Positions 3,561-64,000 of a stretch of 64,000 nt of DNA are shown in pieces; position 1 is the first letter of the stretch; every line of letters starts with the position of its first letter. Source of the DNA: Diphasiastrum complanatum (taxonomy: Eukaryota > Streptophyta > Lycopodiopsida > Lycopodiales > Lycopodiaceae); the NCBI GenBank assembly GCA_029204225.1, contig MU831961.1, positions 1 through 64,000 on the forward strand. The letters are read 5' to 3'. Both the position numbers and the translations under genes were made by a program. Below the pieces are notes generated by a model. That model did not search any database, was not told the origin of the DNA, and worked only from the letters and a program-made list of their open reading frames with translations.

Positions 3561-5150
3561 GTCAAAATTTGCGCGATATGTTATTGTGAATCTACAGCTG
3601 TTATGGATGCGGAGAAGGGCACAGAATTGCGGACTGTTTTCACAAGGGCATATTTATGCCTTTTTGTTAAAAAGGTGGGATACGGGCATTGCTACAAGAA
3701 TTGCCCATTAAGACCTGGAGCTAGTGCACCCTTAAATTTAATCACAGTACGACACAACAATAGTTCCAAGAAGGTTGCCATAGAAGACTCCAACTCCACA
3801 TGTTCCGGTGTTAGCGATTACGCGAGCCCAAATACGAAAAGGAGTGGCACCATCACCACCCCCCTCAATATCATTGGCAAATGATCAACCCTCCACCACA
3901 GGACCATATCCTAATGTAAGTAAAAAGAATAATGACAATACCAAAAGATACGCCATTGAGGAGGCACGAGTAGAGGAAGCTACACAAGCCAAGGACATAC
4001 CTACAGTACCTCTAGCTATGGATGTACCACCAACAAGATCACCATTGAGGATAGATCTTAACGACTATTTGCACCATCGTGAGATACCTTTTCAGATGGG
4101 AGAGCCGGAAGTTCCACAAACGGGAGTGCTCACAAGTCTACTGACTAGCTATATGAACTTATCCCTTGGAGAGTTCTTGCAGATTGCACCTCAAACAAAG
4201 GGTGTCCTTGCAGATTGGATCAAATCAGGACTGAAGCAAACTGCAAAAGAACTCTTGTATTCTGCGGGCTATGAAGGAACTAGCATGTCCTACACATTGG
4301 AATAGTGTGAGAGAGTGAACAACACACCATCACTCTGCTGATCAAGTAGAATAGATACGAGGACGAAGCTGCGGTGTTAGATGGAGGATCAGGAGTCAAC
4401 TTGATATCCACTACCTTAATATATCAAAAGTGAGGATTGCAAGGACTGAAGCCAGCAATATTTGCTATCAAATTAGCGAATCAGACATCCCAGTAAAGAT
4501 AGTGGGAGTACAATTCGTAATCACATTCATGGTAGTGGAAATTCCAGAGTCTCCTTCCACCTATCGCATTTTACTAGAAAGACCTTGGTTGAGAGTTGCG
4601 CAAGTGGTTCACAACTGGGGAACAAGAAAACTCACCTCTGAGAATCGATAATAGGTTGTAAATGTAGATCCAACTAGTTGGGCAGTGAAACCTGTTACAC
4701 CCAAGGCTGATGATGGATCGTCCAACATAGATCACACCATTGATCGCCCAAGGCAAGCCAAGGGAGGTTATTATGATTCTCAAACAGATATTGTATGTTG
4801 GATGAACGCTTTAGCAACAATTGACTGTATGGCTGGGCATGCATGTTAACTAGACTCAGATACAGAACTTAGCACATCATCCCCCAAGGGTTACACCCTT
4901 GACACACCAATAACTTATGAGGTGAACATGATCAATGTGGCAGGGTTAGCAGCGGAGCCTATACCAGAGCAAGTTGAAGATGACTTAGTGCCCTGACGAC
5001 ATGCCTTCTCCTACAACGAAGAAGCTAAGTTGACAGATGAACATGTCCTGCAACATATGGATCCTGATCGATTTGGAATGAGGAAGATACCAGCTCAACC
5101 TCCACAAAAATCACCAATAGCTAAAGTTTCCAAGGTGGAACCACCCAAAG
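3560..5150 (+). pseudogene. Ty3/gypsy gag C-terminus and protease region, broken
   Basis: Decayed remains of a gypsy polyprotein, plus strand. A cysteine-rich segment around 3660-3715 (YGHCYKNCPLRP) resembles the second gag zinc knuckle of plant gypsy elements. A proline-rich linker with a Leu-rich helix follows (open frame 3808-4305). The segment at 4430-4651 carries STYRILLERPWL, the conserved region after the retropepsin active site in many plant gypsy proteases. Frames are broken by stops at several points. The element is cut at 5150/5151 by the inserted non-autonomous LTR element and resumes after 10820. RT and RNase H of presumably the same element lie at 11601-13150. Confidence 0.6.
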
Positions 5151-5979
5151 TGTGAAAAATGCAAAAATTATGCTTGGTCAAGGCCAAATCTATGTATATA
5201 GGATGATTACACATGTGTGGAGCCTGTTTCCACTTGTGAAATAAATGTACTTTTCACATGTAGTACAATCATATAGCTTGTACATATAGTTTAAGTCAAG
5301 TTCTATTGGCTAAAAAGGCCAAAATCATGTTTTTTAGCCATATGCCACATGGCATCAATCTAGAGATTGCATGAAGCCACATCATGAGATTAGGTGTCAA
5401 ATCCCATGTGTAGAGGTCTTCTCACACATATGGAATAAGCTGAGGAAGTCGAAACTGCACTTGTAGAAGAGTTTGCACTAGTTCTCTATATAGTAGAAAA
5501 ATGGACCAAAAGTGCTCAAAATAGAAGATTTTGTCCAAGTGTCAATTTTGCATGATGAATCATCACATGACAAAGAACCCTCACACATGTGAGATCAGAG
5601 GGATGATCAGTACCATGATCTCCCACTTTTTGTATATATAGAGCCACGTTTGGCCATAATCAAAGAAGCAACACCGATCTTGGTTTTGGAGGCAATTCTT
5701 GTCAATCTCATCATTTGTCTTGATTTTTCTTGATAGTTTTGGGTTCCTATCATATTGTACTTTGATTTCAGGCTATAGTCCGTACACTGACAGGTTTTCA
5801 CACGTGTGAAACTATCAAGTACAATTCCCTTTCATTTATGATTGTTCTTGTTAGATTTTCTCATCTAAATTTGATCTAGATTGATCTAAATCTTGTGTAG
5901 ATTGATAGATCAATTGTATCTAACATCCAATCACTCTTGTGGATCATTTTAGGATCCATTATTGGTCCAATTTCCCACA
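5151..5979 (+). repeat. 5' LTR of non-autonomous element copy 1
   Basis: 829 bp, TG...CA bounded. It contains CACATGTG/CACACGTGTG palindromes, including a perfect 16-bp palindrome TTTCACACGTGTGAAA at 5796-5811, and a possible TATA box (TGTATATATAGAGCC near 5631). It is homologous to 9986-10820 and, in reverse, to 16372-17203 and 20835-21668. Confidence 0.85.
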
Positions 5980-5992
5980 TGGTATCAGAGCC
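5980..5992 (+). other. Primer-binding site (initiator tRNA-Met)
   Basis: TGGTATCAGAGCC lies immediately 3' of the LTR. This is the usual primer-binding site of plant LTR elements, complementary to the 3' end of initiator tRNA-Met. Confidence 0.85.
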
Positions 5993-6029
5993 AAGTACAA
6001 GAGGATTCATGAAGATTTGATGGGGTTGA

Positions 6030-6370
6030 TCCAAAACTAAGCCCAAATTAGCAAGTCTTTGGAAACTAGCTAATTTTGATGTGGCGAGTTGGATAGGATA
6101 GGTATACTCAAAATTTATGGACAAAAACTTGTTGTGGGCTGCAGGGGTACTTTTCACACGTGATAGAACGTACAGTACTAGTTTTGGAGCCTTATCTTCC
6201 AGTTTGATGCTAAATCTCCCAAATTAGCAAGTTTGTGGAAACTAGCTAATTTTGAGGTAAAGAGTTTGAATTGATAGCTAGATTCAATTTTTTTGTACCA
6301 AAACTTGTTGTAGGCTGTAGGTGTACCTTCCACACGTGTGGGGCTGTACTGAACCTGTTTTGGTTGAGAA
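6030..6370 (+). repeat. Leader tandem duplication, about 185-bp unit
   Basis: Two diverged copies (about 6045-6170 and 6218-6350) share CCCAAATTAGCAAGT, GGAAACTAGCTAATTTTG and ACTTGTTGTRGGCTG, and each ends near a CACACGTG palindrome. Copy 2 of the element has only one such unit (about 20635-20790), so the duplication is specific to copy 1. Confidence 0.65.
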
Positions 6371-7084
6371 AACTCAAATTGATGCATAATTTGACTCAAA
6401 CACCCAAATTTAGAGATTTTTAGTGCAAATTCAAGCTTTTTCTATAGAGATTCTATTCCTATGATTTGTTCTTGGATTAGATCATCCAAATAATTTAATT
6501 TGAAGCTTGATTAAGTTGCATTAAATGTGTTTCTTTGATTTTTTGAGTACATGTCAAAGTTGAGAGAGATATTGCCAAAAATCATAGATTAAGGAGTGAT
6601 ATGCAAGGTGTGTTGAAATCCATTGTACCATCACTCTAGATTTGTTCAAGAGTGATAGGGTCAAGTTTAGAAGCATCAATTTGCTAGAAAACATCTTTGG
6701 ATCTGTCCTCTAAGTGAAACCTTTGAGAGTTTCTAGTGCATATAGAGCATCTATGCAAATCTTTTGTAAAATTTGACATAGATTGGCTTCAATTGAGAGT
6801 TCTAGAAAAGAAATTGAGATCCAAGTCATATTGTTCAACCCTACTCAATATGTTTGAGTGATTGTTAGGCTTGAAAAAAATTCATTGAGGTGTGTATATG
6901 TGTAGAGAGAGATCCAATTTTCTAAGAGTTCCTTTGTAGAGGGCAAGATCTAGAAGCTCATTTTGTGTTGTTATTGGTGGAGAATTTGTCTTCTCTTAGG
7001 TGATCAAATCTTTCTAAGTGGAATTAGCTCTTTGAAGCACAATATCTTAGTGAGAAAGAAGAATCACAACTTTTGATTTTGAAT

Positions 7085-7800
7085 TTCATTCTAACTCTTA
7101 AGAGGTAGAGTCATTGGTGGAATCCAATAGGGGTGAATGAATTCAATTTATTGAGCAAAAATTGACATAGTATATGTATGAAACTCAAATTAGTTCTATT
7201 CAACTTTCTTTGTGAGAGTGTGAGGGTTAATTTGTGATCCCATTGGATGTCTAGAACAAGGAAGAGTCCATATTTGAGTGTTCATGCATGGTTGAGATCT
7301 TTGTGAATCTCTCTGTGTCTGATTTTTTAAGCTTGGTGAAAAATTCTTGACATAGGTTGTTATCAAACTATTACAAATCCATTCCAAATCTCAAGAGTGA
7401 GATGGATTCCAAAAGGGGTGATTGGATCTTAATTTTATGTGTTTGAATCAAATGTACATGTCAAGTTTGAGTGATCTAGTGTAGATCCTATGTTTTGTGA
7501 AAATTGGTGGTATAGTTTATTGTCAAACCAAATCAAATTCATTCTAAATCTCAAGAGTGAGATTATTTGGGTCAAAGAGTGAGTCCAAAAGAAGTGATTA
7601 AGTTTGATTTTCATGTGTTTGAAACAAAACCCATCTTTTATTCAAGAATCTCAAGTGTTGAGAGAACTAGTCAAGTGAAAAGGAAAATTTAGGTGTCAAA
7701 TCTTTTCATATCCATTTCAACTCTCAAAAGAAAGAGTCATTGGAATTTGTTGAGTCCAATAGGAGTGTTTGGATCTTATTTCTTTTGTGATTTGATTCAA
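7085..7800 (+). repeat. Leader array of about 160-bp degenerate repeats
   Basis: Four related units begin near 7088, 7382, 7542 and 7712. Each has a form of CAAATCTCAAGAGTGAGA followed by TCCAAAAGGGGTGATT and a TTTGAATCAAA tail. The spacing is about 160-170 bp for the last three. Corresponding units occur in the leader of copy 2 (about 19375-19930), so the array belongs to the family. Its function is unknown; packaging or promoter roles are possible but not shown. Confidence 0.6.
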
Positions 7801-7915
7801 AGATTGTGTGCTCTTTTCTTAGTGATCAAAGCAAAGTTTCCAAATGCCTAATCATTAGTGTGAAGATTGATTCTTAGATTTGTGAGCTAGATCTTTTGTA
7901 GATCCTGCTAGATTA

Positions 7916-9863
7916 ATGAATATGTTCAAATCTAGTCTCTTGAGAGTCACAAATTATATTTGTAGAATCATATCACAAGGTTTTTGTCTTATCATGACAT
8001 CAATAGGTGGCATCCTATGGAAGGAAAGTAAGGATTCTAAGTGCAACCTTTGTGGCAAGGGAGGATGTTTTCCCTCAAGATGCTACAAAAAGAAGACTAA
8101 TCCATCCAAGGAGAACCAAAGAAAGGGAGCCGAGGTGAAGGATGGAGCTTCAAGTTCAAAATGAAAATACAAGAAAGACAAGTCCAAGGAAAGGTGTTTC
8201 CTTTGTGAAAAGGTGAATGGGGCTTGGAGTCTCACAAGGACTTGCAAGATTTGTCTTCAAGAGTCCATCACAACACATGTCAAACCTTTTGAAATTTTTT
8301 ATTTGGAAGTGCATTGTTTGATTCAGATGCAAAGATAGATGCCACTTTCATGAAAACAACTTGGATTTATTTCATGTCCTTGAAAAGTATTTTGCTTGGA
8401 ACTTCAGATAAGTTCAAACTTATTGTTATGATCCAAGAGAAATCAATCAAGAATAAGGAGGAGCAATCACAAAATGAAAATAGTTTCATTTATGCTCTCA
8501 TGTCAACTTATGAAGAACTATTTTGTTTTGTAAAGATTTTTCTATCTCAAAGGTGGATTAAGGCAATACTAGTTAAGTGTGATGCCTTAAAAGATAGCAA
8601 AGTATGTTTTCCTTGTAGCTTACATTAGTAATGAAGTCAAGGAAATTGAAATGTCTTCATAATGTAGGATATTTTGGTTTCAATAAGATCATGAATGATG
8701 TTTTCATTCATAAAGATGAAAATTGTAAGTTTTCATTCTTAAAGGCAAGTTGTAAACTTCTTATGAGGATAAGTGAAGCATCCAAAGTGGACACTTATAT
8801 CCATAAGCAAGTAGTTAGCCTTATTGAGATGGAAATACCTTTTGATTTCAATATTAGAAAAATCATGCCAAGTTGTGGTGATTTTTGGACTTATGTTTCT
8901 AGCATAAGTAATCTTGATAGGAAGTGCATATTGTATGGTCATAGTTGTTGTGATCATTATGAGACATGGAGGTCTCGGATTTCCATCAAGAAGGAGCACC
9001 ATGAAGAGGATCTTAAAGAGTCAACTCAAGGTTTAAGTGTGCCAAGGATTGAGGAGGAGAGTCCTTCTCAAGGTTCAAGTGTGCCAAGGATTGAGGAGGA
9101 GAGACCTTCTCAAGCTGTGATTCCAAAAAGAAACTCAAGAAACATAGTTGAGCCCATGTCGCTCACATTTCAAGGGAAAGAGGAGTACATCTCATGTGGT
9201 ATACATCTCATACTTACTTCTCTTATGTCATTTGATGAATCAATTTGCTTTAGTGAGATCATTGCATCTCAAAATTGGAGTAAAGCCATACTAGTTGAGT
9301 ATGAAGTTTCTCTTGAGAAAATTAATGATGTTCTTAAAAGTTTGAAATTGATTTTAGATCAATTAGAAAGCAATTGGTTATCTCATCAAATGTATGCTCT
9401 TGAGTCATGCAAGAGCAAAAGTGATTTGTTCACTCATAGTTTGAAAATTTCTATTGAGGCAAATTGTAAACTCTTTATGAGAGAAAGTGAATAATCTTCT
9501 AAAGACACTTATCTCCATAATGAAGTATTTAGCCTCATTGGATCTGAGATTATCATGGTAAACAAGCATGAAGATATGATGCAAACACTTTGTTATTATA
9601 GCATGCATAGTCTTGCCAATTTGGATGAGTCTAATTCTCTACATCGTGGTGACATGATGTTAGACCTTTGTGATCCTAATAAGTCAAGAAGAAATCTTTA
9701 TTTCCTCATGGAGGAGCATGCACATAAATAAGGAGCAAGCTTCAAGGTCAAGCATCTACATGAAATTTGGAAGGAATCAATTTTGGAGGTGCTAGGATGG
9801 TGCAAGGCTCTCAAGTTCATCAAAGATGTCAACATCAAAGAAGCACTATCATGGATATGGTGA
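7916..9863 (+). pseudogene. Unknown zinc-knuckle/repeat protein, copy 1, broken
   Basis: The only protein of the non-autonomous element, about 620 codons in the inferred ancestor, here interrupted near 8161, 8628, 9492 and 9729. Order of parts: an N-terminal knuckle-like CNLCGKGGCFPSRC (7.9-8.16 kb; the usual His is Cys here), a Lys-rich stretch, a second cluster of the type CxxC...CKIC, then two diverged copies of a ~190-residue module. The modules share a Cys-Phe...SQxWxKAILV motif, then CKLxMRxSE and DTYxHxxVxSLI. An acidic segment with a short tandem repeat (VPRIEEE twice) separates them. No catalytic motif of protease, RT or integrase is seen. A gag-like packaging role is inference only. 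The minus-strand copy at 17330-19239 is better preserved. Confidence 0.6.
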
Positions 9864-9973
9864 TCTCAGATCAACATCAAGCTCATTGGCTGATCTTCAA
9901 ATCTTTTGAACCAGCAAAGACCAATTCGGCCCATGGAGTCAAGTTCAAGATCGTCATGTTTTTATCAAGCTAG

Positions 9974-9985
9974 ATTTTTGAGGAG
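9974..9985 (+). other. Polypurine tract of copy 1
   Basis: TTTTTGAGGAG directly precedes the 3' LTR start TGTGAAAAATGC. The same context occurs in reverse at 17204-17218 in copy 2. Confidence 0.6.
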
Positions 9986-10820
9986 TGTGAAAAATGCAAA
10001 AATTATGCTTGGTCAAGGCCAAATATATGTATATAGGATGATTACACATGTGTGGATCTTGTTCCCACGTGTGAAATAAATGTACTTTTCATGTAGTACA
10101 ATCATATATCTTGTACATATAGAGTAAGTCAAGTTCTATTGGCTAAAAAGGCCAAAATCATGTTTTTTAGCCATATGCCACATGGTATCAATCTAGATAT
10201 TGCATGAAGCCACATCATGAGATTAGGTGTCAAATCCCATGTGTAGAGGTCTTCTCACACATGTGGAATAGGCTGAGGAAGTCGAATTTGCACTTGTAGA
10301 AGAGTTTTCACTAGTTCTCTATATAGTAGAAAAATGGACCAAAAGTGCTCAAAATAGAAGGTTTTGTCCAAGTGTCAATTTTGCATGATGAATCATCACA
10401 TGACAAAGCATCCTCACACATGTGAGATCAGAGGGATGATAAGTACCACGAGCTCCCACTTTTTGTATATATAGAGCCACATTTGGCCATAATCAAAGAA
10501 GCAACACCAATCTTGGTTTTGCAGGCAATTCTTGTCAATTTCATCATTTGTCTTGATTTTTCTTGATAGTTTTGGGTTCCTATCATATTGTACTTTGATT
10601 TCAGGCTGGAGTTTGTACTCTGACAATTTTTCACATGTTTGAAACCAGTAAGTACAATTCCCTTTCATTTTTTATTGTTCTTGTTAGATTTTCTCATCTA
10701 AATTTGATCTAGATTGATCTAAATCTTGTGTAGATTGATAGATCAATTGTATCTAACATCCAATCACTCTTGTGGATCATTTTAGGATCCATTCTTGGTC
10801 CAATTTTGCAGATTTCCACA
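9986..10820 (+). repeat. 3' LTR of non-autonomous element copy 1
   Basis: About 835 bp, homologous to the 5' LTR with scattered substitutions and small indels. The 16-bp palindrome of the 5' LTR is decayed here (TTTCACATGTTTGAAA near 10628). Its last ~75 bp are repeated at about 11173-11250 by a tandem duplication. Confidence 0.85.
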
Positions 10821-16371: not shown

Positions 16372-17203
16372 TGTGCAAAAAGTACAAAAAGGACCAAGAG
16401 TGGATCCTAATCTGATCCTCAAGAGGGATTGGTTGTCAGATTACTTGATTTATCAATCTACTTCAGATTAAAATCAATCTAGATCAATTCTAGACACAAA
16501 ATCCTAACAAGAACAATCATTAATTGAAGGTAAGTGTACTTTATGGTTTCACACGTGTGAAACACTCTCTGAGTACGGACTCCAACCTGAAAATCAAGTA
16601 CACATTGATAGAACCTCAAAACAATCAAAACAAATGTAGACAAATGGAGAGAATCACTCAAAATTGCTTCCAAAACCAAGATTGGTGTCTCACACTGATT
16701 ATGGCCAAATGTGGCTCTATATATACAATAAGTGAGAGCTCGTGGTACTGATCATCCCTCTGATCCCACATGTGTGAGGGTGCTTTGTCATATGATGATT
16801 CATCATGCAAAACTGACACTTGGACAAAACCTTCTATTTTGAGCACTTTTGGTCCATTTTCCTTCTATATGGAGATCTACTTGGAAATCTTTTAGAAGTC
16901 CAAATTCGCCTAATTCAGCTTATTCCACACGTGTGAGCTGTCCTCTACACATGGGATGTGACACCTAACCAAAATATTTGGCTCATGCAATCAATAGATT
17001 GATGCCATGTGTCATATATCTAAAAAACTAGTTTTTGGCCTTTTTAGCCACTAGAACTTGAATTAAATCATATGTACAACCTATATGATTATGGTACATG
17101 ACAAGTACACTATTTTCACATGTGGGAACAGGCCCACACATGTGTAATCATCCTATATACATGATTTTTGGCCTCTACCAAGCTTATTTTTGCATTTTTC
17201 ACA
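16372..17203 (-). repeat. 3' LTR of copy 2
   Basis: 832 bp; in element orientation it begins TGTGAAAAATGC and ends ...TTTTTGCACA. It contains the 16-bp palindrome TTTCACACGTGTGAAA at 16547-16562 and further CACATGTG/CACACGTG variants near 16768, 16926 and 17117. Confidence 0.92.
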
Positions 17204-17218
17204 CTCCTCCTCAAAAAT
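17204..17218 (-). other. Polypurine tract of copy 2
   Basis: In element orientation TTTTTGAGGAGGAG immediately precedes the 3' LTR start. Confidence 0.65.
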
Positions 17219-17329
17219 CTAGCTTGATGGAAAACATGATGATCTTGAACTTGACTCCATGGGCTGAATTGGTCTTTGCTAGTTCAAAAGGTTTGAATAT
17301 CAGCCAATGAGCTTGATGTTGATCTGAAA

Positions 17330-19239
17330 TCACCATATCCATGATAGTGCTTCTTTGATGTTGACATCTTTGATGAGCTTGAGAGCTTTGCACCATCCTA
17401 GCACCTCCAAAATTGATTCCTTCCAATTTTCATGTAGATGCTTGACTTTGAGGCTTGCTTCTTCTTCATGTGCATGCTCCTTCATGAGAAAATAAAGATT
17501 TCTTCTTGATTTATTAGGAACACAAAGATCTACCATCATGTTACCACGATCTAGAGAATTAGACTCATCCAGATTGGCAAGACTATGCATGCTATAATAA
17601 CAAAGTGTTTGCATCATATCTTCATGCTTGTTTACCATGCTAATCTCAGATCCAATGAGGATAAATACTTCATTATGGAGATAAGTGTCTTAAGAAGATG
17701 ACTCACTTACTCTCATAAAGAGTTTATGATTTGCCTCAATACAAATTTTCAAACTATGAGTGAACAAATCGCTTTTGCTCTTACATGACTGAAGAGCATA
17801 CATTTGATGAAATAACCATTTGCTTTCTAATTGATTTAAAATAAATTTCAACCTTTTAAGAACATCATCTATGTTCTCAAGAGAGACTTCATGCTCAACT
17901 AGTATGGCTTTACTCCAATTTTGAGATGCAATGATCTCACTAAAGCAAATTGATTTATCAAATGAATAAGAGAAGTAAGTATGAGATCTATACCACATGA
18001 GATATGCTCCTCTTTCCCTTGAAATGTGAGCCACATGGAATCAACCATATTTCTTGAGTTTCTTTTTGGAATCACAACTTGAGAAGGTCTCTCCTCCTCA
18101 ATCCTTGGCACACTTGAACCTTGAGATGATTCTTTAAGATCCTCTTTATGGTGCTCCTTCTTGATGGAAATCCGAGACTTCCATGTCTCATAATGATCAC
18201 AACAACTATGACCACACAATATGCACTTCCTATGATTATCAAAATTACTTATGCTAGAAACATAAGTCCAAAAATCACCACAACTTGGCATGATTTTTCT
18301 AATATTGAAATCAAAAGGCATTTCCATCTCAATAAGGCTAACTACTTGCTTATGGATATAAGTGTCCACTTTGGATGCTTCACTAATTCTCACAAGAAGT
18401 TTACAACTTGCCTTTAAGATTGAAAACTTACAATTTTCATCTTTATGAATGAACACATCATTCATGATCTTATTGAAACCAAAAGATCCTACATTATGAA
18501 GATATTTCCATTTCCTTGACTTCATAACTAATGTAAGCTTACAAGGAAAACATATTTTGCTATCTTTTAAGGCATCACAATCAACTAGTATTGCCTTAAT
18601 CCACCTTTGAGATACAAAAATCTCTTCAAAGCAAAATGGTTCTTCATAAGTTGACATGATAGCATAAATGAAACTATTTTCATTTTGTGATTGCTGCTCC
18701 TTATTCTTGATTGATTTCTCTTGGATCATAACAATAAGTTTGAACTTATTCAAAGTTCCAAGCAAAATAATTTCCAAGGACATAAAATAAATCCAAGTTA
18801 CTTTCATGAAAGTGACATCTATCTTTGCATCTTGAACCAAACAATGCACTTCCAAATGAAAATTTTCAAAATATTTGACATGTGTTGTGATGGACTTTTG
18901 AAGACAAATCTTGCAAGTCCTTGTGAGACTCCAAGCCTCATTCACCTTTCCACAAAGGAAACACCTTCTCTTGGACTTGTCCTTCTTGTATTTGCATTTC
19001 AAACTTGAAGCTCCATCCTTCACCTCGGCCCCCTTGCTTTGGCTCTCCTTGGATAAATTGGTCTTCTTTTTGTAGCATCTTGAGAAAATATATCCTCCCT
19101 TGCCACAAAGGTTGTACTTAGGATCCTTTCTTTCCTTCAATAGGATGCCACCTATTGATGCCATGTGAATAAAAACCTGTGATATGATTCTACAAATGTA
19201 ATTTGTGACTTTCAAGAGACTAGATTTGAACATCTTCAA
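17330..19239 (-). pseudogene. Unknown zinc-knuckle/repeat protein, copy 2, nearly intact
   Basis: From the Met codon at 19239 the frame is open for 446 codons (to 17899). A frameshift near 17950-18000 moves the homology to the frame of 17690-18034, and one stop at about 17690 separates the last stretch (17330-17638). Parts in order: NLCGKGG-type knuckle near residue 42 (outer Cys and His replaced by Tyr), second cluster CFLC...CKIC near residues 92-112, module 1 (about residues 190-340), CILCGHSCC cluster near residue 352, acidic VPRIEEE linker, then module 2 across the frameshift. Module 2 repeats module 1 motifs (SQNWSKAILV against SQRWIKAILV; EANHKLFMRVSE against KASCKLLVRISE). No enzyme motif is visible. 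Function unknown; a structural, RNA-binding role is a reasonable guess only. Confidence 0.65.
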
Positions 19240-20821
19240 TAATCTAGAATGATCTACAAAAGATCTAGCTCACAAACCTAAGAATCAATCTTCACACTAA
19301 TGACTAGTCACTTGGAAACTTTGCTTTGATCACTAAGACAAAAGCTCACAATCTTTGAATCAAATCACAAAAGAAATCAAATCCAATCTCCAATTGGACT
19401 CATGAAATACCAATGACTCTTTCTTTTGAAAGTTGAAATGGATATGAAAAAGATTTGACACCTAGATTTTCCTTTTCACTTGACTAGTTCTCTCAACACT
19501 TGAGATTCTTGAACAAAAGATGGGTTTCGTTTCAAATACATGAAAATCAAACTTAATAACTTCTTTTGGACTCACTCTTGACCCAAATAATCTCACTCTT
19601 GAGATTTAGAATGAATTTGATTTGATGAAAACAAACTATACCACCATTTTTTCACAAAGCTTAAAAATTAGACAACTAGAGATTCACAAAGATCTCAACC
19701 ATACATGAATACTCAAATACGGACTCCTCCTCATTCTAGACATCAAATGGGATCACAAATTGACCCTCACACTCTCACAAAGAAAGTTGAATAGAACTAA
19801 TTTGAGTTTCATACATACTATGTCAATTTTTGCTCAATAAATTGAATTCAATCACTCCTATTGGATTCCACCAATTTCTCTACCTTTTAAGACTTGGAAT
19901 GAAATTCAAAATCAAACGTTGTGATTTTTCTCACTAAGATATTGTGCTTCAAAGAGCTAATGCCACTTAGAAAGATTTGATCACCTAGGAGAATACAAAT
20001 TCTCCACCAATAACAACACAAAATGAGTTTCTAGATCTTGCCTTCTACAAAGGAAGGAGCTCTTAGAAAATTGGATCTCTCTCTACACATTTGTCATAGA
20101 CACCTTAATGACCTTTTCAAACCTTCAAATCACTCAAACAAATTGAGTAGGGTATAACAATGTGACTTGGATCTCAATCCTTTTTCTAGAACTCTCAATT
20201 TAAGCCAATCTATGTCACATTCTACAAAAGATTTGCATAGATGCTCTATATGCACTAGAAACTCTCAAAGCTTTCACTTGGAGGACAGATCCAAGGATGT
20301 TTTCTAGAAAATTGATGCTTCTAAACTTGACCCTATCACTCTTGAACAAATCTAGAGTGATGGTACAATGGATTTCAACCTTTCACCTTGCATATCACTC
20401 CTTAATCTATGATTTTTAGCAAAATCTCTCTCAACTTCAACATGCACTCAAAAAATCAGAGATAATCAATTAATGCACCTGATTCAAGCTTAAAATTTAA
20501 TTTATTGGCTGATCTAACCCGAGAACTAATCAAGGGATTAGATTCTCTATAGAAAATGCTTGATTTTGCACCAAAAATCTCTCAAATTGGGTGTGTGAGT
20601 CAAATTGTACAAATTTTTGAATTTTCAGCCAAATCGGAGCTGTACGGTCTCACACGTGTGAAAAGGGTTCCTACAGCCCACAACAAGTTCTGGTCCAAAA
20701 ATTTTGAGAATATCTATCAAATCCAACTCGCTACCCAAAATTTGACTAGTTTCCAAAAAACTGCTAATTTTGGCTTTGATTTGGATTAACCCTATCAATT
20801 TCAACAAAATCTCTTGTACTA
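19240..20821 (-). other. Long leader of copy 2
   Basis: About 1.6 kb between the primer-binding site and the open frame. It contains degenerate ~160-bp repeats (about 19375-19930) matching those of copy 1, and one unit (about 20635-20790) of the sequence duplicated in copy 1, with a CACACGTGTG palindrome near 20650. No coding potential is recognised. Confidence 0.55.
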
Positions 20822-20834
20822 GGCTCTGATACCA
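20822..20834 (-). other. Primer-binding site of copy 2
   Basis: GGCTCTGATACCA on the plus strand, i.e. TGGTATCAGAGCC in element orientation, directly abutting the 5' LTR at 20835. Confidence 0.88.
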
Positions 20835-21668
20835 TGTGCAAAAAAGTGCAAAAAGGACCAAGAGTGGATCCTAATCTGATCCTCAAGAGGGATTGGTTGT
20901 TAGATTACTTGATCTATCAATCTACTTCAGATTAAGATCAATCTAGATCAATTCTAGACACAAAATCCTAACAAGAACAATCATTAATTGAAGGTAAGTG
21001 TACTTTATGGTTTCACACGTGTGAAACACTCTCTGAGTACAGACTCCAACCTGAAAATCAAGTACACATTGATAGAACCTCAAAACAATCAAAACAAATG
21101 TAGACAAATGGAGAGAATCACTCAAAATTGCTTCCAAAACCAAGATTGGTGTCTCACACTGATTATGGCCAAATGTGGCTCTATATATACAATAAGTGAG
21201 AGCTCGTGGTACTGATCATCCCTCTGATCCCACATGTGTGAAGGTGCTTTGTCATATGATGATTCATCATGCAAAACTGACACTTGGACAAAACCTTCTA
21301 TTTTGAGCACTTTTGGTCCATTTTCCTTCTATATGGAGATCTACTTGGAAATCTTTTAGAAGTCCAAATTCGCCTACTTCAGCTTATTCCACACGTGTGA
21401 GCTGTCCTCTACACATGGGATGTGACACCTAACCAAAATATTTGGCTCATGCAATCAATAGATTGATGCCATGTGTCATATATCTAGAAAACTAGTTTTT
21501 GGCCTTTTTAGCCACTAGAACTTGAATTAAATCATATGTACAACCTATATGATTATGGTACATGACAAGTACACTATTTTCACACGTGAGAACAGGCTCC
21601 ACAAATGTGTAATCATCCTATATACATGATTTTTGGCCTCTACCAAACTTATTTTTGCATTTTTCACA
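20835..21668 (-). repeat. 5' LTR of copy 2
   Basis: 834 bp, near-identical to 16372-17203. The perfect palindrome TTTCACACGTGTGAAA is at 21011-21026. A TATA-like CTATATATAC lies near 21180 on the plus strand. Followed by the target duplication TCTAG. Confidence 0.92.
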
Positions 21669-52860: not shown

Positions 52861-52911
52861 CGCGCGCGCGCGTAAGAGTGGGGAACGTAACTCCCCCCAC
52901 TCTCCATCACG
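52858..52911. other. CG-alternating tract and inverted repeat at LINE/copia junction
   Basis: CACGCGCGCGCGCG (about 52860-52872), an alternating purine-pyrimidine run, is followed by an inverted repeat GAGTGGGG...CCCCACTC (about 52877-52903). Copia coding sequence starts at about 52912. Confidence 0.6.
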
Positions 52912-55900
52912 AATCCAATATTGAAGCCATAAACGCATAATGTGTTTCTTCACCAGCTTCACAATAGTATCCACTTGAACATGTCAATCTCTTAGCTCCT
53001 TGTTGACTCGATTCTCCCTCATCCAACATTTGACTATCTTGTATAGTCTCACAATACCATCTTGGTAACTTCTTTATAGGTGACGTAGAAGGAGAATAAG
53101 TATCAAATACTCTTGACCTGTCTTTTTGTTTACCAAGATCCAATTGTGTACTCACCCTTGGTACAATTTGTGTAGAAGCTGTATCACTTGGACCTGTACC
53201 TTCCTGAACATCATCTATAACAGGAGTTTTTGATGTAGGAGAAAATACATCCTCCTCATGATCTTCTAGGTTAGAAGACTCACTTTCTTCGAACACAACA
53301 TCCCTGCTCATAATCACCTTCTTACTGGTAAGATTATAAAGGCGATATGCCTTCTCTTCCTCATCATAACCAAGGAATAAACACTTGATTGCCATTGAAT
53401 CAAGTTTTTGACGATTATCTTTAAGAATATGAGCATATGCAATACAACCAAAAACTCGTAGATGATCCACTTTAGATTTTATACTTGTGAAAGCTTTTTC
53501 TGGAGTTCGATTGAGAACAGCTTTTGTAGGACTTCTGTTAAGTAAGTAAATTGCTGTACAAACTGCTTCGCCCCACAAATGATTCTTGAGGTTCTTACCT
53601 CGTAGCATGCTTCGAGCACTCTCCACAATAGACCTATTCTTTCTCTCAACTACTCCATTATGTTGTGGTGTATCAGTTGAAGCAAATTGTCTCTTGATTC
53701 CATGTTCTTTGCAGAATTCGTGGAACTCTGTAGATATGAACTCACTTCCCTTATCTGAACGTAGAATCTTTATTTGCTTTCTTGTTTGCTTCTCAACAAG
53801 CGATTTGAACTGAGTCAAGAACTTAAAAGCTTGACTCTTATACTTAACCAAGTATATCCATACTTTCCTGGAAACATCATCCACAAATACCATGAGTAGG
53901 ATGCTCCCGCTATAGACTCAATCTGCATGGGACCACATAAGTCTGTATGAACAAGTTCCAAGATGTCCTTGGCTCTCTCTATATGCTCCATCCTTAGGAA
54001 ACCGCATACAATGATGCTTGCCCATAACACATCCTTCACAGATTTTTTCCGAAGATACAATATTAGGTAATCCTATTACCATATTATTGTCTTTTAGAAC
54101 CTATAAGCTTTTATAGTTCAGATGTCCAAACCTTTCATGCCACATCCTGCTCTCCATGCTATCAGAAGCTGCATAAACCTGATGATCCGATGTAGACGTA
54201 TCAAGTTTGTAAAGTCGACCTTCCAAAAATCCTTTGACCACAACTTTGTAACCTTTGTTTTTGTCTTTGATAAGACACTTCTGATCATCAAACTCACTTT
54301 CATGTTTTGTTTAGCGATAGCAGAAACTGAAAGTAAATTCTTCTTTAAACTTGGAACATAGAGAACATTCTTAATTTCTCCTATATTCCCTAAAGGTAAA
54401 TGTAAAGTCCTCAACCAAGAATCCTATTCTAGGCATGCCAATAATAGCAACAAAAGGGAAACAGATGGTGGACAAACCAAACCAACCAAACCTAGATCGA
54501 ACGGATCTAGCCCCCAAGCTATGGATTAATCTCAAAGAGGAGTGAGGCACCACACCAGCAGCATACGGCTACTAGTCTCACAATCAAGGATACACTAGTG
54601 AGAGCCCAATACGTATACTTATACCCTCCAAGGCCCATGCACCACTAGTAGTGCACTGTGACACCTCATTGGACACCTCTGCAGCCTATCTAGGCCACGT
54701 CATCGAGTTCCCCAATGACACATTAATAGACCCGTACAAATCCACCATCATGAGTTTAGGCCTACAACCATTAATTATGACCTTATACACATAAGGGCCC
54801 CAATTCCCTTATAGTCATAACTAACTTACGGGTTGTTGGTCTACCGATCTCTAGTGTGGACACGCTACCCGAGACCAATCATGGGCATGACATTCTTCCC
54901 CCCTTATTCAAGTTCTATCCTCAGAACTTAAAATTGGGGAAGTTCCTCCTTAAGCTTCCTTCCTATTCCCAGGAATCATCATCGTCTGTGCAATTTTTTG
55001 GTTGATTTGTCCACCATCTGTTTCCCTTTTGTTGCTTATTATTGGCATGCTTAGAATAGGATTCTTGGTTGAGGACTTGACAGTAAATGTACTCTCACTG
55101 TACCTCGACCTTTGATGTCGTAAGAAGAATTGTCTCCAAGCTTGACATGTGCATTTACACCACTGTCATCAAACTGTGTAAACCACTCACAATGTGGGAT
55201 CATATGTTGCGTTGCTCCAGAATCACCAACAGTCATTAGAGTTCTTTGATGTTGAAGCTGAGAATAACTCATAGCATCCCACAGCTTCACTTTTGTCATC
55301 GTCTTCAATGAAGTTGCCTGACTGCTTCTTCTTGTCCTGGATAGCCTTCTTTTTCCTGCACTCAAACGCAAAGTGACCATATTTACCACAAAAGTTACAA
55401 TTACCATTTCTCTTTGGATTGGACTTGGAACTGTCTCCTTTTTTTGTATTGTCCTTGCTTTTCTGCTTCTGATCCTTTTTACCTCCTTTCTTTTTGCCCT
55501 TCTTACCTTGATTCTTGGTAAAGAAACCTAGCTCCTTCAAATCTTCCCTAGACATCAAGTTTTGTCTTCGTAATTCTTCGCAACCCATTTAGCTCGTCGA
55601 ATGTCGGCGATCTGTCCCTCAAACTTAGTGTCATAACCAAGTTTTAATATTGAAATGGTAAGCTATTCAAAACAATTTCTACAAGAGTATTATCAAGTAC
55701 AATTTCCCCTATCGAAGACAACTGATCTCTTAGATCCTTCACCCTGGTAATAAAATCTGTAATAGATTCTTTTGATTGACTTACTCACCGTTTCATATGT
55801 ATTCCTAAGAATATCCCATGCATCCTTAGGCCCGACTGCATTCCTGATCAAAAGGAATAACCTTATCCTTCACGGATAAGTTGATGATATGGTGTGCACG

Positions 55901-58019: not shown

Positions 58020-59344
58020 CTATCACAACAATGAAAATTATCAGCTTAACACAAACACCCAAAACTTTATGTAGACTACCAACTACAGCAGAAAGCAAAC
58101 ACTTTCAATTAGTTATTCATTATTTCTTAGATGAACCAGATGAAGTAACATAAAATGAGAAATGTTCCACCAACTTTCTCCTTCCCATTGCCCATCACTT
58201 TGCTGTCCACTGATATCCAGGATTGTAATCTACATTAAACTCTTCCATGATCCTGATGGGAGCTGAAACCTATTCCCCTCGCACCATCTCAATATGGTAC
58301 ACTCTAGAGAAAAAGCTAGAACCCTTTATCAAACGGATGGATCTGATGAGGCAAGAGATTGACGACCTTAAGCTAGAAGAAGCAGAGTTGAAGAAAGAAA
58401 ATCTGAAGCTGCATAAAGGGACATCAAGCATACATGCATCTGCCAAGTTCTAGGACCTTCAAAGCAAATCAGAGCAACATAAAGAAAAGACCAAAACCTG
58501 GGCATCCATAGTGAAGGGTAATTTAAATAAATATGACTCTGACTTTCACCGTCATTTAACTAACATTTCAAAGAATTTATTGGAGAGCAAATCCCTCAAC
58601 ATTAGAATGAAAAGAGTCCCGAATACACGTGATTAAACCCAAGAAGCCAAACGACTTCTCAAATACCCTCGGCAATAAGAGCTCGGGTATGAAAAACCTA
58701 GCGGACAAAGGAGGACAACACCGCTTTGGTAATTAGGTCTACCTATCTAGAGAAGCCCTTTTGAGGGCCCTTAAATAAGGGCTAAGCTATGACATGCATG
58801 TATCTTCATGAACAATGATCTCACGTATATAGAAGTAGATGAGTGCCTCGAGGCAGTGGGTCACGCTTCATGGATAGGAGAAGAGTTCCAGATTGTCGCA
58901 CAGAGAAAGTCAAGTGCTCTGGGCAAGGAAGCACCCTGAGTCCCAACCACACCCATTGTGGATAACTTTTTGGAGCTGTAACCATATTCATTCATCCTCG
59001 ACTATAGGTAATTAACGAGACTCTATTGATGGTGGGGATATCATGTTTTTCATGGAGACACATGAGAGTCAATTGAAAGGCTTGCCTATAATTCCAAGCT
59101 TCACATGGGACTCAGTTCACCACAGAGTCAATTGGAGGCATAGGGCCAATCGAGTGACATGACTTTACTAGGATTCCATATGTCCAAGACTTGCGGTGTG
59201 GTCACCTATCTCTCACTCCATTTATATTTAATTTCAACATCTGCACCACTACACTTTCTTACCACTCTTCTCTCTTTCCACCTTGGTTCAGTTATAGATC
59301 ATACATCACGATCCCCTCCATCTATCTCTCGTGCCTCACGTTAC

Positions 59345-59795
59345 TGTTAGGGACCCAACTCCCTTGGGTCCCAAACCCAGACTTGAGACTAGACGATGAC
59401 TGGGCCAGTAGACTTGACCAGTGACTCGTGAACCTGCATGGTTGCCACGTGTCATGATCTAGGTGTGCACATGGCTTAGAGTCTCTCTCCTTGGAGGTAT
59501 ACAAGGGGAAGAAGGCTCAGTTGCCATCGATTCTATCTACCTAGGAGGAGGAGGTGGATGGAGAGCGTGTGCACGGCCAGGATGTATTTATAGCGTGAGG
59601 CAGGAGATGGCTGAGAGCCTAGCCGGTGGTATGGGACGCCATCTAGGATGGAAGTCGGATCCAGCTTGATACGGTTACATGCCAAGGCACGGTGGGTGGA
59701 CCCGAATTAGGTCCTATGACGGGGTGGAACGTGAATCGTTCGGTCTCTTGTGGTTAACCGACACCTGGAGGTTTGCAGTAAGTAAGATTGTAACA
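59345..59795 (+). repeat. 5' LTR of gag-only element
   Basis: 451 bp. Differs from the 3' LTR by scattered substitutions and by one extra GGA-type trinucleotide near 59550. Confidence 0.92.
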
Positions 59796-59797
59796 TA

Positions 59798-59810
59798 TGG
59801 TATCAGAGCC
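59798..59810 (+). other. Primer-binding site of gag-only element
   Basis: TGGTATCAGAGCC, two bases after the LTR end. Confidence 0.88.
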
Positions 59811-59997
59811 ACTGCATGCTGAAAGCAGGTGCGTTGATCCGCGGTAGATTTCTTGTAATTTACAATGCTTCTGACGGAATTCAAAATGGGCTTAAATCAT
59901 GTTTTTTATGCACTTTTGTGTGTTTGTCCTTCTTTGCTGTTTTTGGTTTTTGGATGAAATTTTTCAAAAAAAAACAGTTGTGGGGCCCTTGGCAGTG

Positions 59998-60472
59998 TGC
60001 CACGTGGACTGTCCAGAGGCAGACAGGTGGCAGTCCTCCTCAACTTGCATTTCCGCTCCAGGTTGAGGTAACGGACGGTGTCAAGGGGCCCCTCCCAGCG
60101 AAAAAAAAGGTGGTTGCTCGCTGTCTGAGCAGCGATGCAATAATACAACAAAAAAACTTGTATTGGATCCTTCTTAGCGCTGCCACATGGCACTGTCCGG
60201 GTCAGGACAGGTGGCACCTTCCAGCGGAAATCTGTTCCGCTCAGGATTGGAGGCCCGAGTCTCTGTTTCACAGGCCAGAGGTGTCAAATGAAGTTACTTT
60301 TGATCAGGTCCCGTTGGAAAACAGCGATGGAACCTCGTTTTCTATCTGATCATTCCAGAAAAGGAATGTTAGCCAGCGATGAGGGTACAGGAGGATCTGG
60401 CTGCCTACTGGGCAGAATTCTGGTGGGTGGCCAGTGTGCTACTGTGGTGCCAAGGTGGCACAGTATGGCCAC
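59998..60472 (+). other. Three bulged hairpins in the leader
   Basis: Hairpin 1 (59998-60032): TGCCAC, 5-nt bulge, CTGTC, loop, GACAG, GTGGCA. Hairpin 2 (60181-60216): TGCCAC, 6-nt bulge, CTGTCC, GGGTCA loop, GGACAG, GTGGCA. Hairpin 3 (60427-60472): GTGGCCA, 6-nt bulge, TACTGTG, 12-nt loop, CACAGTA, TGGCCAC. All three have two stacked stems with a bulge only on the 5' side. Their position between primer-binding site and gag is where retroelement packaging/dimerisation signals lie; that role is inferred. Confidence 0.65.
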
Positions 60473-60717
60473 TTGGCAGGTTGTAGGAAAGCATGGAGAG
60501 GGAGGCATACCTCTCCTATGCATGTTTTTTCTTGAGAATTAGAGGTGGAGGTGGTGGTGCATCCTCTCCTGGCTCTCTCTTATTCCTTTTGGCAGCCATG
60601 GACAATACCATTTGGTTTGTGAAGAGACAGCAAGAATAGTTTTATATCTACCTTCCTTGAGTAGCTTTTGATTCTCTTCTATCATTGCTTCTTAATTCAC
60701 CTCTCTTCTCCTAGTAA

Positions 60718-61337
60718 ATGGAGCCTACTCCTACTACACAGCCTATGTCCCCTGTTCATGAGGCTACAGTACCTGCCTCTGTTTTAGACCTTGATGCTTT
60801 GATGCTGGCTATTAACAGTCTACAGCAACAGATTGTGGATATGCAAGCTAAGCACAGTCGGGATCAGCAGGATCTCAAGGAATTGATGCAGCTAAGGCAA
60901 TTGGTGCATCAACCCTTGTTCACTCCTAAAGTTTTTGCTGGGGAAAAGAAGGATAGAACCCCGGAAGCGGTCTTGCAATGGCTGGATCGATAGAATTCGC
61001 ATTTTTCCATGCACGATTCATCCGAGGACAACAAGATCAATCTCGCCATCGTGTACCTACGAGGTAAAGCATTTACCTAGTGGCAAGATATAAGGGGTAA
61101 GCCTGAAGTTCCTAGGAATTGGAAGGATTTTTGTAAGGCCTTTAAGGCGGCCTTCCTTCCTATTCTTGATGATTTTGAATTTTACCGTCAATATGCGACA
61201 ATCCATATGGGGAACCGGCCCCTGGATCAGTATTTACAAGAGTTTCAAGAGGTCTATTCTCGTTTTGCAACTAGAATAGATCCTTTGCTAGTAAAGTTGC
61301 ATTTTAAACTGAGATTCCCTGAATTCCTTCCTTAGAT
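60718..61337 (+). pseudogene. Truncated gypsy-type gag with in-frame stops
   Basis: ATG at 60718; 91 codons to TAG at 60991-60993, then the same frame continues through a second TAG at about 61078 to a stop near 61335. The N-terminus has a Pro/Thr-rich start and a helix (LALMLAINSLQQQIVDMQAK-like). The gag domain has YLRGKAFT-WQDI, NWKDFCKAFKAAFLP and NRPLDQYLQEFQEVYSRFA, as in plant gypsy gag. It stops before any zinc knuckle; the purine tract and LTR follow within 30 bp. Activity in RNA packaging is doubtful because of the stops. Confidence 0.75.
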
Positions 61338-61345
61338 AAGGAATT
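61322..61345. other. Short perfect hairpin before the polypurine tract
   Basis: AATTCCTT, 8-nt loop, AAGGAATT (8-bp perfect stem) immediately upstream of AAGGAAGAGGGAA and the 3' LTR. Could be chance or part of the 3' processing region. Confidence 0.5.
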
Positions 61346-61361
61346 TTTAAGGAAGAGGGAA

Positions 61362-61809
61362 TGTTAGGGACCCAACTCCCTTGGGTCCCAAACCCAGACT
61401 TGAGACTGGACGATGATTGGGCCTGTAGACTTGACCGGTGACTCGTGAACCTGCATGGTTGCCACGTGTCATGATCTAGGTGTGCACATGGCTTAGAGTC
61501 TCTCTCCTTGGAGGTATACAAGGGGAGGAAGGCTCAGTTGCCATCCATTCTATCTACCTAGGAGGAGGTGGATGGAGAGCGTGTGCACGGCCAGGATGTA
61601 TTGCTGGCGTGAGGCAGGAGATGGCTGAGAGCCTAGCCGGTGGTATGGGACGCCGTCTAGGATGGAGGTCGGATCCAGCTTGATACGGTTACAGGCCAGG
61701 GCACGGTGGGTGGACTCGGATTAGGTCCTACGGCGGGGTGGAACATGAATCGTTCAGTCTCTTGTGGTTAACCGGCACCTGGAGGCTTGCAGTAAGTAAG
61801 ATTGTAACA
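61362..61809 (+). repeat. 3' LTR of gag-only element
   Basis: 448 bp, preceded by the polypurine tract AAGGAAGAGGGAA and followed by the target duplication GTTAC. Confidence 0.92.
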
Positions 61810-63150
61810 GTTACACTTTCAGTTCATCACACATTCCTTTATATCATGAATCACTCCTCTCTTTGCTCCACCACCTACCACTTAATAACCCCGTGAAAAC
61901 CCAAGCCACCCTCCTAAGCACTACTCTCTTCTATATTGTTGCTTCTCTTGCCTTCCTCTTCAAAAACTAAACCCAAGTCTAGATCCCACCACATTTTTTC
62001 TCGCAACACCTAGTATGATGAGGAATGCATATGCCTACACCATAGGTGATCCATGTTTGAGTCCTTCCCCCCAATCTTCTATGTTACACCATACGGCAGA
62101 ACCTCACTTTACTTCGATGTCAGAAGGTTGCCTACATGGAAGCTAAAACAAGAGACTCTTGGACTTCTTGTTTAGCTCTTATCTAGTTCCTTCTAGCATA
62201 AGTTTCTCCCTCGAGATCCTGCCCCACCTTTGATTGATCTACATGACTGGACCAGGTACGCCACCACTCTACAAATGATTCCTACAAAAACCCCCATTAC
62301 CATCTTGCTCGGATCCTCAAAGTCCTCATTTTTTACTCCCATGATGGTACACAAAGTCATCAATCGACTGTAATGTATTCATGCAGAACAGGCCAAGGAC
62401 CTTGAGCTAAAACTCCTTACAGATGCTGCCAATATCATATTCCCATCAGTTGCCACTCTCTCAATAGGGTTATCATTTTTGGTTTCCCATGCTCTTCGTG
62501 TATTGACATGCATACACCCCAAAAATTACCATACCATCGTATTTGGGCATATCATAGCCAAGTTGTATAGAACTATCTTGTAGGCAACAATGAGCAGTGA
62601 GGCAAAGTTTCAAAGGGAGCAAGTTTATTGTTGCTTCAAGCTATTCTCCAGTTGATATCTATATGCAAAGAGCCTTGGGGTTTGGAGATACTGATATGGG
62701 GAGGTTGAGATATCCTTGGCTAGCACTCATATTGTCTAGGAGTATTAACGTGCAGTGACAATATTTAATATGGTACCATTAAGCCTGCTGCCTCTTGCCT
62801 CCTGAAGTCGACATTCCCATATGTCACCTTTCTGAGGGAACTCACTCATACATCCGACAATATATTTAGAAATCATATATCCAAAGCGTCTAGCATGGCC
62901 CACAAGATTTGAGGGCCAAGCTAGATTTCTACAACACTCACTCCCTGGAGATGAATGCAGCAAGTGACCCGATCATGCCTCGGCATTTGGACTCTACACT
63001 ATCACACGATCTCGAATTCACTTTGAGATAGATCAAAGCATCTTCACACCAATTACAAGTGGAGATAGGTCAAACCTCCCTTCTACAACATTTCCTTACG
63101 ATTCCACCATTGAGGACAAATCCACCTTTCTTTCTAAGACCCTACACAGT

Positions 63151-64000
63151 TAATCGACAAAAATTTGATTCAAAGGCAATCAAGTGTTAATTCCTTGGTT
63201 ATGATGAGGAAGAGAAGGCATATCGCCTTTGTAATCTTACCAATAAGAAGGTGATTATGAGCAAGGATGTTGTGTTCGAAGAAAGTGAGTCTTCTGACCT
63301 AAAAGATCATGAGGAGGATGTATTTTCTCCTACATCAAAAACTCTTGTTATAGATAATATTCAGGAAGATACAGGTCCATGTGATACAGCTTCTACACAA
63401 ATTGTACCAAGGGTGAGTACACAGGTGGATCTTGATAAATGTAAGGAAAGGTCAAGAGTATTTGATACATAGTCTCCTTCTATATCACCTACAAAGAAAT
63501 TACCAAGATGGTATTGTGAGACTATACAAGATAGTCAGATGTTGGATGAGGGAGAATCGAGTAACAAGGAGCTAAGAGATTGATACGTTCAAGTGTCAAC
63601 TATTGTGAGGATGGTGAAGAAACGCATTATGCGTTTATGGCTTCAGTGTTGGATTCAGAGGATCCTTTATTTTATGAAGATGCTACAAAGGAACAAGTTT
63701 GGAAGACCGCTATGGATGAGGAGCACAATTCTATTATGAAAAACGAGACATGGGATCTTGTTGAACTTCCAGTAGGTAGAAAATGATTGGTTGCAAGTGG
63801 AATTATAGAACCAAGTTCAAGACTGATGGTTCTATAGATAAGTATAAAGCTGGTTGATCTATTGCAACACCAATGATCAAGTTGCAGATATCTTCACAAA
63901 AGGACTTGATCATGAAAATCAAGACACTCCTAGGGCTTATTGATAATCAATTATCCATTAAGGGGGAGTGTTAGGAATTAATGGTTAATTAATTAAATGT
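63151..64000 (+). mobile_element. Copia 3' portion (+), RT/RNase H deleted
   Basis: Starts in the integrase C-terminal region (FLGYDEEEKAYRLCNLTNKK; compare LFLGYDEEEKAYRLYNLTSK at 53.35 kb), continues through the acidic spacer and the RT entry (WKTAMDEEHNSIMKNETWDL, about 63705), then jumps at about 63855 to the RNase H end (CNTNDQVADIFTKGLDHE). RT catalytic core and most of RNase H are missing. The purine tract AAGGGGGAG (63960-63968) and the first 32 bp of the 3' LTR (63969 onward, TGTTAGGAATTAATGG) reach the window end. In-frame stops are present (e.g. in IKC-stop-FLG). Confidence 0.85.

Follow-up and report, generated by a model that had tools for sequence, protein, structure and literature searches.

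What do three inverted repeats in the untranslated leader of an LTR retrotransposon of Diphasiastrum complanatum signify? The window, that is, the whole 64,000-nt stretch of contig MU831961.1 that was analysed, contains a gag-only element to whose leader a first-pass annotation had assigned three hairpins (H1, H2 and H3), said to share a two-stem, 5'-bulged fold that is conserved as structure rather than as sequence and to act as cis signals of a non-autonomous element. We give about an even chance to a different reading, in which H1 and H2 represent the same cis-acting stem-loop of the genomic RNA, present twice in the leader of a pol-bearing element of Ty3/Gypsy order and most likely engaged in dimerisation or packaging.

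The structural features expected of a Ty3/Gypsy element (paired LTRs, target-site duplication, primer-binding site and polypurine tract) are all present in the window copy, which is laid out as follows.

59340..59344, + strand: target-site duplication GTTAC, read off the sequence; second copy at 61810-61814
59345..59795, + strand: 5' LTR (TGTTAG...GTAACA); identity to 61362-61809 of 94.7%, K80 0.051
59798..59809, + strand: primer-binding site TGGTATCAGAGC, recognised by eye
59798..60717, + strand: untranslated leader, 920 nt
59998..60032, + strand: H1, module copy 1; kept across subfamilies, inner stem weakened in the window copy
60181..60216, + strand: H2, module copy 2, a duplicate of H1 that has diverged; missing or degraded in some divergent loci
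60427..60472, + strand: H3, hairpin; kinship with H1/H2 not found
60718..61335, + strand: gag frame, truncated and interrupted by in-frame TAG codons at 60991 and 61078
61303..61319, + strand: junction of the private internal deletion; matches of relatives end at 61310-61319
61349..61361, + strand: polypurine tract AAGGAAGAGGGAA, adjoining the 3' LTR, recognised by eye
61362..61809, + strand: 3' LTR, pairing with 59345..59795

We take the primer-binding site to be of the initiator-Met tRNA type, and the role of AAGGAAGAGGGAA as polypurine tract is likewise our assumption. Domain search of the gag frame (60718..61335) matched Retrotrans_gag (PF03732) in its last piece, at 61081-61332 (E 6.2e-6), and gave no zinc knuckle match there, although this domain is present in a relative (L041, below). 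With two in-frame TAGs in the gag frame, the window copy is pseudogenic.

Relatives were searched for in the window's own genome (1.74 Gb); none was found in the viral contig collection or the genome contig collection. A query made of the internal part returned 2658 candidates, 40 of which were scored, giving 49 matches, and 40 loci were taken, the window's place included. In L003-L008, which reach 1.5 kb past the match, there is no second LTR. Among eight longer downstream stretches, five contain LTR sequence, beginning 2.5-9.3 kb in, and none appears in those of L041, L043 and L048. Pieces of two of the eight stretches (L041 and L046) were scanned for domains. L041 encodes a zinc knuckle (CCHC), protease, RT and RNase H, followed by a second protease match, and L046 encodes RT, RNase H, Integrase_H2C2, rve and SH3_Tf2-1, of which the integrase core rve is weak (24.2 bits, below the cut-off of 32.6). 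The order PR-RT-RNase H-integrase is pieced together from these two loci and is not found in the window copy itself; relatives run on into pol in Gypsy order.

A query spanning the junction, for which 40 matches among 1599 candidates were scored, is crossed end to end only by the window and by locus C1:89162347, and the other 38 of the 40 end at 61310-61319. The second locus has the window's flanks; ahead of 62568 the two sequences show 4 differences (3 inside the element). It is therefore the same insertion duplicated or an alternative assembly. In our reading, a short TTA is common to both sides of the joint. Because the junction occurs at one locus and its duplicate while 38 of 40 matches stop there, the gag-only form is best explained by an internal deletion, private to this insertion, in a longer element. 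The proposed non-autonomous element that keeps its cis signals is not borne out, since among the matches scored the deletion is private to one locus and the relatives carry pol; the hairpins were inherited from the longer family. A 'non-autonomous gag-only element' in one window can turn out to be a single deletion.

With LTRs and gag only, the window copy resembles the TR-GAG elements described in PMC8704663. Those have one full GAG ORF, whereas the gag of the window copy is interrupted and truncated and its deletion was found at one locus only. Membership of that class was rejected on two counts: the GAG ORF is not intact (two in-frame TAGs, no zinc knuckle match), and the junction, at one locus and its duplicate among the 40 scored of 1599, is not that of an amplified short family. 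A second short copy (L033; G000:C10:47761555-47763825) was formed by a different deletion and consists of the leader and 135 nt of gag fused straight to the LTR, without a polypurine tract. The leader of L037 (G000:C12:36335122-36337801) is a mosaic, with the first ~420 nt 75% like the window and the remainder 91%, as if two subfamilies had recombined.

The inverted repeats were searched for mechanically, under a plan drawn up after the matches had been seen: an outer stem of at least 6 bp, a bulge of 4-7 nt confined to the 5' side, an inner stem of at least 5 bp and a loop of 3-12. The leader (59798-60717) contains exactly three matches, H1, H2 and H3, and among 2000 dinucleotide shuffles of it one match occurs in 29 and two in none. 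An equivalent search for mirror-image, 3'-bulged hairpins found 0 in the same leader interval. When bulges of 0-10/0-10 are permitted, the leader has 4 matches, whereas shuffles average 0.22; in a set of 300, 3 matches occur in one shuffle and 4 in none. All three inverted repeats are present where the first-pass annotation had placed them, beyond chance, but the common fold attributed to them is the optimum for H2 only. Folded in isolation, the claimed structures of H1 and H3 are 5.7 and 7.5 kcal/mol worse than the respective optimum, with an ensemble probability of 0.0000 for both. The mean pairing in the whole-leader fold is 0.95 (outer stem) and 0.000 (inner stem) for H1, 0.046 and 0.99 for H2, and 0.006 and 0.000 for H3. 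H1 of the window is limited to five inner pairs because position 60021 is an A, where most aligned copies have a G. Local alignment of H1 with H2 scores 26 (mean of 60 shuffles 10.4, maximum 17), which backs their description as a diverged duplication. The scores of H1 with H3 (14; shuffles 10.3, maximum 14) and of H2 with H3 (10; shuffles 9.95) are near or at chance.

Two leader-wide measures were discarded. The fold energy has z values of -5.1 on the plus strand and -4.9 on the minus strand and is, being equally strong on the latter, not RNA-specific; 23 control windows include several at -3 to -6.7 and one at -19, in simple repeats. Palindromes of at least 8 nt number 3 in the leader and 2.99 in shuffles, and those of at least 6 nt show a mild excess (16 compared with 10.9) that 46 of 500 shuffles reach. 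Rfam gave no match in 59300-61900 up to E 5, and none in the whole window at gathering scores. Other repeated or paired features of the leader are CAGCGATG, present three times (60130, 60322 and 60374; 0.008 per shuffle), and CAGCG, present five times (0.44 per shuffle). A strong stem, GGGGCCCTTG.../...AAGGGGCCCC at 59982-60092, encloses H1 in the predicted leader fold and is paired in 83.2% of cells across copies, with many unpaired cells. A fourth bulged hairpin, A/T in composition, lies at 59937-59977, with bulges of 4 nt (5') and 1 nt (3') and 88.7% of cells paired across copies.

The module common to H1 and H2 spans ~36 nt and reads TGCCAC, RTGGCA, CTGTCC, a variable loop, GGACAG and GTGGCA. 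Its 5' bulge is a second copy of the 3' strand of the outer stem, and TGCCAC consequently has two mutually exclusive partners. In plan A, TGCCAC would pair with the distal GTGGCA to give the bulged hairpin; in pairing B, it would pair with the adjacent copy, forming either a small hairpin or a 12-nt palindromic duplex between two RNAs. The 5' arm forms a 12-nt palindrome by virtue of the same repetition, and plan A would hold this palindrome closed.

Conservation of the module was assessed in divergent subfamilies retrieved with the leader of L037 (789 candidates, 40 scored; 30 loci, L049-L078, 28 of them distinct). These were aligned with four earlier sequences in 32 rows, L037 and L049 being one place. 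The mean minor-base frequency of the H1 module is 0.046, whereas 413 windows of 36 columns average 0.20; the set is biased towards conservation because the query contained H1. The sole leader window as low overlaps the module, and the next-lowest elsewhere, just past the primer-binding site, has a value of 0.054. The result holds without L049 (0.047) and with the divergent rows and L037 only (0.043). By segment, the variability is 0.026/0.005 for the outer stem, 0.026 for the bulge, 0.010/0.026 for the inner stem and 0.183 for the loop. The exact module occurs in 19 of the 28 divergent loci and is present twice in 8, H2 being absent or degraded in part of them; the palindrome has no mismatch in 23 of the 32 rows (22 of 31 when L049 is set aside). 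It is imperfect in both H1 and H2 of the window copy, H2 having two central mismatches. Within the closer family, GCCACGTG of H1 has zero variants among the 29 copies that cover its outer arm. As the least variable part of the aligned leader across subfamilies, H1 looks like a selected cis element. The first-pass reading is thus supported as to the location of the hairpins in a retroelement leader and, for H1, as to a cis element, though not in its attribution to a non-autonomous element.

Covariation gives a different picture from that expected for a conserved structure. In 36 distinct H1/H2 sequences, 91.9% of cells pair, none of the 12 pairs differs at both positions, and shuffles have a higher covariation score (0.076) than the real sequences (0.055); the outermost pair fails in 23 of the 36. 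The window holds one copy of the element, and the comparison of its H1 with its H2 yields 0 both-side changes. In the divergent rows, the stems and the bulge are constant, the loop varies and no pair is changed on both sides. The first-pass annotation had named a lack of compensatory changes among genomic copies as evidence against its proposal, and this is what H1/H2 display: stems and bulge are kept as sequence, contrary to the notion of structure conserved in place of sequence, and the pairing is unproven by covariation. Folded alone, plan A is the optimum for 8 of 29 H1 copies of the closer family and for 21 of 32 H2 copies; for H1 of L037 it is the optimum at -16.4 kcal/mol, compared with -14.5 for pairing B, 1.9 apart. 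Homodimer (cofold) energies were rejected as evidence of dimerisation, since dimerisation is predicted to be favourable for every inverted repeat, so that the values discriminate little.

H3 was considered as a third copy of the module and rejected, its alignments with H1 and H2 being near chance and its claimed plan not conserved. The stems that are kept are an outer 7-bp stem (60427-60433/60466-60472) and an alternative inner 7-bp stem (60437-60443/60454-60460), separated by a 3x5 internal loop. The claimed inner stem is paired in 81.2% of the cells of 19 distinct sequences, compared with 95.5% for the alternative; one particular pair of the claimed stem is seen in a single copy out of 33 (a single distinct sequence out of 19). 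The corresponding counts in 13 divergent copies are 58 of 77 and 75 of 83 cells; they omit the 15 of 28 loci with a partial or no H3 match, most of which lack the 5' half, and H3 is accordingly not universal. A 6-nt bulge on the 5' side only is predicted in 5 of 33 copies folded alone. One of 14 pairs, in the outer stem, has a compensatory change (C-G to G-C) in 1 of 19 distinct sequences, shared by L007 and L009; that number is within the shuffle range, since in two tests 112 and 70 out of 500 shuffles attain it.

Both arms and the bulge are conserved in sequence around a loop that is free to vary, a pattern indicative of a stem-loop that is recognised rather than of structure alone. By analogy with Ty3, Ty1 and BARE, we infer that the module would serve as a recognition signal of the genomic RNA, its most likely roles being dimerisation and packaging. 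The window copy, made by internal deletion of a longer element, carries weakened versions of it. A dimerisation signal of the retroviral type should have a palindrome in or near the 5' leader, as is the case here (perfect in 23 of 32 rows), and should present it in a hairpin loop, whereas in plan A the palindrome is divided between the outer stem (5' half) and the bulge (3' half).

Yeast Ty3 genomic RNA dimerises through a 5' palindrome (PMC11381356), the functional one, PAL6, being 6 nt long and among those in GAG. The palindrome described here differs in being 12 nt long, in lying in the untranslated leader, in having a competing distal arm and in being sometimes duplicated, and its function is a candidate one. 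Ty1 provides a further analogy for a genomic-RNA dimerisation and packaging signal (PMC4974528). The BARE1/BARE2 pair of barley is a plant LTR system with dimerisation and packaging signals, in which a parasitic derivative is packaged in the particles of its partner (PMC3735527). Unlike the present element, BARE belongs to the Copia superfamily, and BARE2 constitutes a subfamily, not one isolated deletion like the window copy. Little is known of packaged RNA beyond BARE according to the same source, and we regard the signals by which RNAs of plant LTR retrotransposons dimerise and are packaged as poorly defined. A 36-nt leader module that is near-constant across divergent subfamilies of one genome is a concrete candidate to probe. 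It is not described in the titles or abstract openings among the open-access matches listed, for searches in which the motif was not a query term; as these cover part of the literature and leave subscription papers outside, the absence is weak evidence of novelty.

We take the likeness of the module to primate lentiviral SL1 to be one of plan only. Under structural entrapment, the conformation of the lentiviral leader affects presentation of the dimerisation signal (PMC2494553). The sequence is another one here, and the competing strand directly repeats the second half of the palindrome. An 'entrapped palindrome' switch in Gypsy genomic RNA is conceivable on this pattern, although we think it unlikely: the monomer would be the translated form, in which the distal direct copy holds the first half of the palindrome, and release would permit the 12-nt pairing and packaging. 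Duplication of the module would then tune the switch.

The conservation of the module could instead reflect a DNA-level site, which we judge rather unlikely. The CACGTG core of H1, which we label a G-box, would be bound by bZIP or bHLH proteins as a leader enhancer, and the hairpin would be incidental dyad symmetry. CACGTG is retained in 29 of 29 H1 copies as the sole fully kept CpG among 24 leader CpG sites, the fold excess is alike on both strands, and an enhancer in the leader of Drosophila copia is cited in PMC2829016. Yet such a site leaves unexplained the distal arm GGACAGGTGGCA, which is equally conserved with a variable loop between, and most closer-family H2 copies have CACATG with the arms still kept.

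Control of translation, by shunting or internal entry as in plant pararetroviruses, would be in keeping with the strongly structured leader and with the 22 ATGs that lie ahead of the gag ATG if the start is assumed at 59620. Shunting in CaMV and RTBV requires a short ORF and a stable stem (PMC2241666), but no short ORF is shown to end at the base of the module, and a small duplicated module is unlike one large shunt stem; we consider this explanation improbable. We give equally little credence to neutral inheritance, under which the inverted repeats would be functionless and the module conserved through the youth of the copies. In the closer family, H1, H2 and H3 are ordinary windows (37th, 19th and 16th percentile of variability, with a window of 35 nt for H1), the window copy is pseudogenic, and L049-L078 were fetched by similarity to a stretch containing H1, a bias towards conservation. 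Across subfamilies, however, the variability of the module is ~4x lower than the average over aligned leader windows, and what variation there is falls mainly in the loop. The model of a non-autonomous gag-only family with three leader hairpins that share structure and not sequence can draw on the three plan matches of the window copy, on L033 as a second short copy with its leader present and a different deletion, and on the one compensatory pair in the H3 outer stem, but is already contradicted by a deletion confined to one locus and its duplicate, by H1/H2 without covariation and by an H3 plan that is not conserved, and is scarcely credible.

Other repeats were noted in the window. Within 1349-22412, the stretches 5149-10806 and 16372-21668 are related and inverted, with direct terminal repeats that are 94.9% and 98.3% identical, and both are bracketed by a further direct repeat (1349-1954/21815-22412); the region has the appearance of LTR elements inserted one within another, or of an inverted duplication. 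The fragments 52911-53420 and 63148-63656 form an inverted pair with 92% identity, and the translation of the latter looks Copia pol-like.
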